Shown: piece after piece, positions 31,697-42,996 of the stretch
Layout: the number at the start of each line of letters is the position of its first letter
Numbering within the stretch: position 1 is the stretch's first letter
Assembly (NCBI RefSeq): GCF_039529835.1
Contig: NZ_CP154262.1
Span: 2,232,001-2,296,000, forward strand
Direction of reading: 5' to 3'
Length of the DNA: 64,000 nucleotides
Source: Arthrobacter sp. TMP15
GTDB lineage: Bacteria; Actinomycetota; Actinomycetes; Actinomycetales; Micrococcaceae
Made by a program: the position numbers and the translations under genes
The notes under the pieces: generated by a model
What the model saw: the letters and a program-made list of their open reading frames with translations, nothing else
Told to the model about the DNA's origin: nothing
The model's database searches: none

Positions 31697-31801
31697 CGCA
31701 TAAACTTACCGCACCATCGCCGCTATTGAAAAGTTACCTACAGCCGGGTAGGAAGTAGTGGCACACCTCGCGGTAGATTCACAGATTGGGAAAGTTTAAG
31801 T

Positions 31802-32187
31802 GGATAGGGCAGCCGATACGCCGGGTTTTGTCATCCGCAACAGTTACCCGCTGCGGAGAGGCAACCATCCATCTACGAACGCCGTTGCCGACGCCCTCTA
31901 GCGGCCTACCCAGACACTCGGGCGAACAGCCCTCAGTCATGCCCTGTCTGGCCTTGCTCCGGGCGGGGTTTACCGAGCTTCCCCAGTCACCTGGGGAACT
32001 GGTGGTCTCTTACACCACCGTTTCACCCTTACCTGCGCCGGCTCTTGCGAACCAGGCGGGCGGTTTACTTTCTGTGGCACTTTCCTGCGAGTTACCCCGA
32101 GTGGGCGTTACCCACCACCCTGTTCTGTGGAGCCCGGACGTTCCTCGAGTCACTTGCGTGGCTCGCGGTTGCCTAGCTGCCCTATCC
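31802..32187 (-). ncRNA. rnpB: RNase P RNA (class A)
   Basis: The minus strand contains the universally conserved core GAGGAACGTCCGGGCTCC near the 5' end and, near the 3' end, GATGGTTGCCTCTCC and GACAAAACCCGGCGTATCGG. The ends pair as helix P1 (GGATAGGGCAGC with GCTGCCCTATCC), which sets the boundaries. RNase P RNA matures tRNA 5' ends. Length, about 386 nt, is normal for Actinobacteria. Confidence 0.95.
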
Positions 32188-41544: not shown

Positions 41545-42606
41545 ATGAAGATTATGAGCCCTGAAAATATTACGGTTGCGATTGCTGTCCCACTCAGCTC
41601 CGAGCTTGTGGAGCGCATCAAGTCGGCGCATCCAACCGTGACCGTTCGCTATGAACCCGAACTGCTGCCACCGGAGCGGTTCCCGGCCGACCACGCAGGG
41701 GATCCGGCGTTCAAACGAACAGCCGAACAGGAAGCGCGCTATTGGAAAATGCTCCGCAGCGCCGATGTGCTCTACGGTTTTCCCAATGAAGATGCTCAGG
41801 GGCTGGCTAGCATCTCCTCAAGCCCGAAGCTGCGGTGGATTCAAGCCATGGCAGCCGGCGCAGGTGGCACCGTCAAGGCGGCCAACCTGTCCCCCTCAGA
41901 CCTAGCGCGTATCACTGTCACCAGCTCTGCTGGCGTCCACGCCTTGCCACTAGCTGAATTTGCCATGCTAGGCATCCTGAACGGCTTCAAAGGCACAGTA
42001 GCGCTTGCCGCCGATCAGGCCGCGAAGCACTGGCCGGAGCTCCGGAGCCCTACACGTTTGCTCAGTGGCTCCAACGTAGTCATTGCCGGACTTGGCGAGA
42101 TTGGTCTTGAAACTGCGCGCCTGGCCCGGGCACTAGGCATGAACGTCAGCGGCACCAAACGCAACGTAGAAGCCATCGACGGTATAGACGTAGTCACCGA
42201 CACCGCCGGACTTCCCGATCTTGTGGCCACAGCCGACGTTCTCATCAACACTCTCCCTGGAACGCCCTATACGGAAAAACTAATCAATTCAAAAATCTTC
42301 AACGCCATGAAACCGGGCACGATTCTGATCAATGTGGGCCGTGGCACGGTTGTTGACGAGGAGGATCTCTTGGCAGCACTGAACAATGGCCAGCTCTCAT
42401 ACGCTTGCCTCGATGTCTTCGCCGAGGAGCCGTTGCCAACGAACAGTGAACTATGGTCGCACCCACTTGTGTTGGTCTCACCCCACTGCTCAGCCTTGAG
42501 TGCAGCGGAGAACCGTCTCATTGCCGAGCGTTTCATCGAGAACCTCACGCGCTTTCAGGCCGACGAGGAGCTATTGCACCCTGTGGATTCTGTCTACTTC
42601 TACTAG
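41545..42606 (+). CDS. D-2-hydroxyacid dehydrogenase family protein
   Basis: NAD(P)-dependent D-isomer 2-hydroxyacid dehydrogenase. The Rossmann motif is VVIAGLGEIGLETARLARAL near residue 185; INTLPGTPYTEKLINSKIFN, LINVGRGTVVDEEDLLAALN (catalytic Arg) and LDVFAEEPLPTNSELW (Glu) follow, and the catalytic His is in LVSPHCSALSAAEN. The substrate is unknown; enzymes of this subgroup act on glyoxylate, phosphoglycerate-like or keto acids. Three starts compete: GTG 41530, ATG 41545, ATG 41554; no ribosome site decides. Confidence 0.88.
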   Translation: MKIMSPENITVAIAVPLSSELVERIKSAHPTVTVRYEPELLPPERFPADHAGDPAFKRTAEQEARYWKMLRSADVLYGFPNEDAQGLASISSSPKLRWIQAMAAGAGGTVKAANLSPSDLARITVTSSAGVHALPLAEFAMLGILNGFKGTVALAADQAAKHWPELRSPTRLLSGSNVVIAGLGEIGLETARLARALGMNVSGTKRNVEAIDGIDVVTDTAGLPDLVATADVLINTLPGTPYTEKLINSKIFNAMKPGTILINVGRGTVVDEEDLLAALNNGQLSYACLDVFAEEPLPTNSELWSHPLVLVSPHCSALSAAENRLIAERFIENLTRFQADEELLHPVDSVYFY

Positions 42607-42656
42607 CTCACAGCTGCCACCACAGGGCCTCCACCGCAGAGGTAGAACGTCCGTTG

Positions 42657-42685
42657 TTGTGTTTTTCCCGGAGGAGAGGTATATT
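42657..42685 (+). promoter_or_regulatory. predicted promoter of candidate small RNA 1
   Basis: TTGTGT (42657-42662), 17-nt spacer, TATATT (42680-42685). The second candidate RNA has the same -10 box and spacer length. Confidence 0.6.
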
Positions 42686-42691
42686 TTCTCC

Positions 42692-42787
42692 AGGCCTTCC
42701 CCTGTGGCGTCCCCCAATAGCCACAGTGGAAGGTCCACCAATTTAAGTGCCCGTTTTGAGAGTTTCTCCGGTGCTGCGGATTTTTTT
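42692..42787 (+). ncRNA. candidate C-rich-loop small RNA 1
   Basis: From the predicted start at 42692 the RNA folds at once into a hairpin (42693-42736): stem CCTTCC-C-CTGTGGC with GCCACAG-T-GGAAGG, loop GTCCCCCAATA. A short TCCG/CGGA stem followed by seven Ts ends at 42787. No protein frame of note overlaps. The C-rich exposed loop is reminiscent of the actinobacterial 6C RNA family, whose loops can pair with G-rich ribosome sites. Confidence 0.6.
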
Positions 42788-42859
42788 GCCTCAAGTTTCA
42801 GCATGTGAAACTTCTTCTTGACCCCAAGCTGTGAACATCTGGCAATGGAGTGTGTCAGT

Positions 42860-42888
42860 TTGCATCTGGCCGTGCCAGTTGTTATATT
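42860..42888 (+). promoter_or_regulatory. predicted promoter of candidate small RNA 2
   Basis: TTGCAT (42860-42865), 17-nt spacer, TATATT (42883-42888). Confidence 0.6.
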
Positions 42889-42894
42889 TTTAGT

Positions 42895-42950
42895 ACTGGT
42901 TCCCCACCACAGCGTCCCCCAATAGCTGTGGCGGGGAGCCTTTTATTTTA
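42895..42950 (+). ncRNA. candidate C-rich-loop small RNA 2 with terminator
   Basis: From the predicted start the whole RNA is one hairpin: GGTTCCCC-A-CCACAGC pairs with GCTGTGG-C-GGGGAGCC, loop GTCCCCCAATA, followed by TTTTATTTTA. The loop is identical to that of candidate 1, while the adjacent 7-bp stem is inverted in sequence (CCACAGC here, CTGTGGC there), which keeps pairing intact. The hairpin doubles as an intrinsic terminator. Confidence 0.65.
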
Positions 42951-42996
42951 AGCAGCAGCTTGGGCCACTGCGGTCATTTGCAATCATTGGCCCCCA

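Follow-up and report, generated by a model that had tools for sequence, protein, structure and literature searches.

The window, by which we mean the whole stretch of 64,000 nucleotides analysed from Arthrobacter sp. TMP15, contains two promoter-hairpin units, placed 205 nt apart and downstream of a dehydrogenase gene whose stop codon lies at 42606. Each unit, read on the forward strand, consists of a promoter, in which a 17-nt spacer separates a TTGNNN -35 box from the -10 box TATATT, and a hairpin with a stem of 16 positions, which begins 7-9 nt after the -10 box. Unit 1 is preceded by a conserved element, GAGGTAGAACGTCC (42639-42652). Its promoter spans 42657-42685, with the -35 box TTGTGT at 42657-42662 and the -10 box at 42680-42685, and its hairpin RNA, with a predicted start around 42692, spans 42693-42735, followed by a tail (42736-42752) that contains TTTAA and is partly conserved (69% mean identity). 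The promoter of unit 2 spans 42854-42888, where a conserved stretch, GTCAGTTTGCATC, includes the -35 box TTGCAT (42860-42865), and the -10 box occupies 42883-42888; its hairpin RNA, with a predicted start around 42895, spans 42898-42940 and is followed by a U-rich tail, TTTTATTTTAAG (42941-42953). The coordinates of the two separately promoted units, with their TATATT boxes and 17-nt spacers, agree with those of the initial annotation of this stretch, and so does the identical C-rich loop that it reported, GUCCCCCAAUA, which is found at 42709-42719 and 42914-42924. Elsewhere in the window, at 31801-32184 on the reverse strand, lies an ordinary gene for bacterial RNase P class A RNA.

Both hairpins have helices of 8 bp and 7 bp, separated by one internal mismatch, and a loop of 11 nt, and their folding is well beyond what is obtained for shuffled sequences (z of -6.3 for unit 1 and -6.8 for unit 2). 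An exact search for the loop, GTCCCCCAATA, gave two copies in the window. The 3.7-Mb genome has one more, three in all, and this additional copy sits on a 112-kb contig (C2) and has a different stem. Two hairpins of 7 bp and 11 nt with the same loop were found in none of 30 sequences of 64 kb simulated from a first-order Markov model of the window. With regard to termination, the hairpin of unit 2 and the U-rich TTTTATTTT that follows it form a plausible intrinsic terminator, a function in which the hairpin probably doubles; its 11-nt loop was too large for the terminator scanner. It had initially been called a perfect terminator; we grade it as plausible. The hairpin of unit 1 is followed only by ACCAATTTAA, which includes no strong U tract, making the 3' end of this unit uncertain.

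Of the 23 genomes examined from the genus Arthrobacter, 22, including those of A. psychrochitiniphilus, A. cryoconiti and A. silviterrae, have the unit pair with both hairpins, as detected with a covariance model of the hairpin (R1) and by reading of the loci, and exact matches to the pair turn up across the genus. These are 21 genomes whose loci were read in detail plus a second genome of the same species, and the sole genus genome without the hairpins is a draft assembly (G008). The 21 loci have both hairpins in each, at a loop-to-loop spacing that ranges from 111 to 283 nt. In their alignment, mean column identity reaches 98% and 100% in the -10 boxes of units 1 and 2, respectively, 93% and 92% in the hairpins, 90% in the upstream element of unit 1 and 85% in the 5' element of unit 2, and is 53-56% in the promoter spacers (56% in that of unit 1), 54% in the 3' end of the upstream gene and 49% in the inter-unit DNA. 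Such a sharp footprint over promoters and hairpins implies that each promoter and each hairpin is under selection of its own.

Covariation had initially been read from the inner stems of the two units, CTGTGGC/GCCACAG and CCACAGC/GCTGTGG. As these differ between paralogous units, the comparison alone does not amount to covariation; the orthologs of each unit, however, do covary. In the orthologs of unit 1, a set spanning six genera, 98.3% of the stem cells are paired and 14 of the 16 pairs have changed on both sides, with 67 doubly changed cells (not independent events, the sequences being related) against 20.5 in shuffles. In the orthologs of unit 2 the corresponding figures are 96.1%, 11 of 16 pairs, and 47 cells against 16.1. 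Pairing drops to 33-59% in slid controls, and in the pooled hairpin family doubly changed cells number 125, compared with 35.5 in shuffles. The two ortholog sets do not include members whose loops differ in length, namely some loci of genus g21 and locus L095. The loop columns, TCCCCCAAT, are invariant in both ortholog sets, and the C-G pair that closes the loop is nearly invariant in unit 1. Ortholog alignments and footprint thus agree with the proposal of a conserved loop on a changed but compensated stem, and in the relatives the flanks vary around a loop that does not, the opposite of a loop lost from within conserved flanks. Each unit has its own conserved promoter and a predicted structured RNA, surrounded by unconserved sequence and with no conserved ORF, as independent sRNA genes would. 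With its covarying stems and conserved promoters, the pair reads, at the sequence level, as two independently promoted small-RNA genes.

Beyond the genus, R1 matches 95 of 295 genomes of the family Micrococcaceae, in 16 of 32 genera, some of the weakest of these matches perhaps being due to chance, and outside the family it gives only two weak matches among 396 genomes of the order. Genomes of the genus have from two to seven copies. The pair occupies the same place in genera g42, g40 and g43, and one unit does so in g24 and g21, with neighbours shared across genera: gnd or a dehydrogenase gene on one side, and a short unnamed gene, sir2, peroxiredoxin and aceE on the other. Whether gnd or a 2-hydroxyacid dehydrogenase gene lies upstream varies by genus, and the units remain. 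A record titled Sporosarcina beigongshangi (NZ_JADHDY010000007.1, L063) has the Arthrobacter locus with its usual neighbours and is probably misnamed. Loop variants are (A/G)UCCCCCAAUA, AUCCCCCAAUG, GAACCCCCCAAUG and GUCCCCCAAGU, all of which keep the C-run and AA, so that the stable core is C5-6AA; the context UCCCCCAAU is kept in many genera, that is, invariance extends beyond the Cs. In the genus the run has five Cs, except in one species (L095), where it has four; some members of another genus have six, and the most distant relatives have a C-run, mostly with AA, between variable flanks (GAACCCCCCAAUG, UCCCCCCCAACG, AGUCCCCCUAUUA).

Elsewhere there are hairpins that stand alone and combine the same loop with unrelated stems (L016, L024, L105; L136, L137; L126, L135). 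These sites, the first three at L016:1502, L024:1502 and L105:1626, together with L134, have the loop (A/G)TCCCCCAAT(A/G) on unrelated stems that are themselves conserved. Another group of paralogs, of plasmid type, has a GAAGTGGCCAACC stem (L003, L034, L042, L043 and L044) and includes a copy on contig C2 of the present genome (G000:C2:77098-77153, L003:1501), the others being at L034:1515, L042:1465, L043:1410- and L044:1546; it has relatives on the Arthrobacter plasmids NZ_CP013746.1 and NZ_CP012478.1. Some plasmid copies retain the Cs and not the whole loop. Upstream of this group are sequences, such as TTGTCAGAGTGTCCTTGTAGTGT, with few mismatches to the PafBC-type DNA-damage promoter motif, tTGTCRgtg-8-TannnT (PMC5656591), which the putative promoters of these plasmid-type units resemble in sequence. 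A plasmid search with the window pair and a phage search with one paralog gave no match.

The element upstream of unit 1 is a near-dyad, GGASGT-AGA-ACGTCC, that resembles the dyad GGACGT-AGA-ACGTCC of the glmS promoter. In 15 of the 23 genomes of the genus, namely the present one (G000:C1:3062703-3062716, reverse strand) and 14 others, glmS has a dyad of the GGACGTAGAACGTCC type some 30 nt ahead of its start codon, followed by a TATGAT box about 8 nt before the ATG; the glmS mRNA is possibly leaderless or nearly so. Of 21 unit 1 promoters of the genus, 16 contain the 11-mer GTAGAACGTCC unchanged, and the 12-mer GGTAGAACGTCC was found only at unit 1 and glmS in the sequence sampled, which included about a third of the genome. 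These motifs suggest that unit 1 and glmS are likely under a common regulator. The same transcription factor would probably act on both through the predicted operator of GGACGTAGAACGTCC type, a hint that unit 1 may be connected with amino-sugar or cell-wall supply. In Enterobacteriaceae, too, a pair of homologous sRNAs, GlmY and GlmZ (PMC4908143, PMC7073468), is tied to glmS. The likeness is in the tie to glmS, here by way of the promoter element that unit 1 has in common with it; the difference is that this link is a shared putative operator, and no relation in sequence or structure is expected. A genus-wide search with the palindrome GGACGTNGNACGTCC gave a sole further recurrent site, GGATGTAGGACGTCC, located near a gene for a probable solute-binding protein, which was rejected as it looks like a different operator. 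A conserved dyad, TCGGATGTAGGACGTCCGA (G000:C1:399211-399225, L334:1501), present a single time in most genomes of the genus, precedes a gene for a probable solute-binding protein and is probably the operator of another regulator.

6C RNA, or B11 (RF01066; ncRv13660c, cgb_03605), for which target pairing and an SOS link have been reported, resembles the RNAs predicted here in being an actinobacterial sRNA that exposes C-rich hairpin loops, and it is widespread and conserved. However, 6C combines two hairpins in one RNA of about 75-100 nt, and its loops usually have six Cs, whereas the units described here have one promoter per hairpin and, in a fixed context, UCCCCCAAU, five Cs (four to six across the relatives), at another locus. 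The initial suggestion that the arrangement is distinct from 6C is upheld by the covariance searches: RF01066 had no match in the window at the Rfam gathering score, none over the region at E<=10, where only chance-level matches appeared, and none in G000 and the genus genomes searched. Rather than two hairpins in one RNA, we found a conserved promoter for each hairpin, and both the unconserved inter-unit DNA (49%) and the variable loop spacing (111 to 283 nt) speak against a single 6C-type RNA. 6C-like RNAs with two or three hairpins, and loops that are mostly CCCCC(C)AA, are present at other loci in the sister genera g20, g25 and g38 and in G138 (L139-L142, L154, L115/L132/L133). They share the CCCCC(C)AA cores and the bacterial family with the units described here, but their hairpins are close together, apparently in one transcript, and not syntenic with the unit pair; in G138, a 6C-like RNA and an R1 hairpin coexist at different loci. 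Those with three hairpins, in g20 and g25, seem to be a variant not described before. Within the order, one 6C sits at the ssd (Rv3660c-like) locus (L056), and no C-rich hairpin was seen at that locus in G000 or its relatives. Judged by these comparisons, the unit pair is 6C-like in design but falls outside the features that define 6C. No Rfam family, 6C included, matches the pair, no earlier description of it was found in Rfam 15 or in open-access papers, and it is real and apparently an undescribed cousin of 6C in style.

Each gene would yield a predicted RNA of about 55 nt. A single long hairpin would take up almost all of it, leaving only the 11-nt loop (A/G)UCCCCCAAUA exposed. The stem would merely display and protect this loop and, in unit 2, also terminate transcription. 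The loop would in turn act in trans on a limited number of mRNAs by pairing with short G-rich sites in them, as in mycobacterial 6C/B11. There, C-rich loops repress mRNAs via G-rich ribosome sites, and either loop represses a target whose ribosome site contains six Gs (PMC10470900). As the loop is the sole exposed part of so short an RNA, 6C-like pairing is the likeliest mode of action, and the same loop under different promoters would make one regulatory activity available under two conditions. We therefore favor, with somewhat better than even confidence, two tandem sRNAs whose loop acts by base pairing with short G-rich sites.

The more specific proposal of pairing with G-rich ribosome sites is not supported so far. 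Loop-complementary 6-mers were found near the starts of 34 genes, against 45 for shuffled loops, and 7-mers near those of 6, against 10, that is, without enrichment at start codons in 777 predicted genes (about 1.26 Mb, a third of the genome), in a test that is coarse given that gene starts were taken from a simple codon-score script. Ordinary ribosome sites in the sampled genes are AAGGAG-like. Genus-wide, no full-length loop complement with a start codon (TATTGGGGGAC-NTG) is conserved beyond the sRNA genes; recurrent matches are found only at these genes and their paralogs, in antisense, and the others are scattered single matches. The initial interpretation is thus, as a whole, partly supported, and either the target set is small and the pairing short, or the loop is read by a protein.

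If the invariant loop were read by an RNA-binding protein, the tandem genes and the plasmid copies would act as a decoy or sponge, a mode in which CsrB and GlmY-type RNAs work. This would fit the lack of enriched complementary mRNA sites, and several copies with the same loop and different stems fit titration. Moreover, loop positions other than the Cs (A-A-U) are also invariant, and in unit 1 the C-G pair that closes the loop hardly varies; invariance beyond the Cs (UCCCCCAAU) could equally mean protein recognition instead. However, the core that persists in the most distant relatives is a C-run with variable flanks, which is better explained by base pairing, and no candidate protein came to light; we consider the sponge possible but rather doubtful. 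A divergent 6C whose two hairpins have been split into separate transcription units seems to us unlikely. Both have two hairpins with C-rich loops, and two- and three-hairpin 6C-like RNAs with CCCCCAA loops do exist in sister genera, but these are not syntenic with the unit pair, the locus differs, and in G138 both kinds of hairpin are kept apart. Neither did RF01066 match, even at E 10 or in the genus genomes searched, nor were intermediate genomes seen with both hairpins fused at the unit pair locus.

The position of the units downstream of the dehydrogenase gene, together with the U-rich tail of unit 2, could also suggest mere terminators or attenuators of neighbouring genes, with promoter-like boxes that are incidental. 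We find this very improbable, as the -10 boxes, 7-9 nt ahead of each stem, are 98-100% conserved, an invariant 11-nt loop is not needed by terminators, unit 1 has no strong U tract, and the units stay in place whether the upstream gene of a genus is gnd or the dehydrogenase gene. A mobile or REP-like repeat that has no function as RNA, as might be suspected from the extra copies on plasmid-like contigs and Arthrobacter plasmids, is scarcely credible in view of the few copies per genome (two to seven), the synteny fixed across genera, the conserved promoters and the covarying stems.

A broader scenario may also be advanced, which we offer tentatively and regard as less probable than its alternatives taken together. 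Micrococcaceae may have a family of single-hairpin sRNAs, composed of a tandem chromosomal pair and of plasmid paralogs with DNA-damage-type promoters, in which one C-rich loop serves one common partner and the chromosomal pair is wired to glmS and cell-wall precursors; such a family would be an independent functional counterpart of 6C and GlmY/GlmZ. The regulatory RNAs of Micrococcaceae are hardly described, and a conserved minimal sRNA, in essence a loop carried by a stem, would offer a clean way to ask how C-rich loops choose their targets without Hfq. It would also bear on the reasons for which bacteria retain two differently promoted copies and gain more on plasmids, and the promoter element common to unit 1 and glmS provides a testable physiological entry point.
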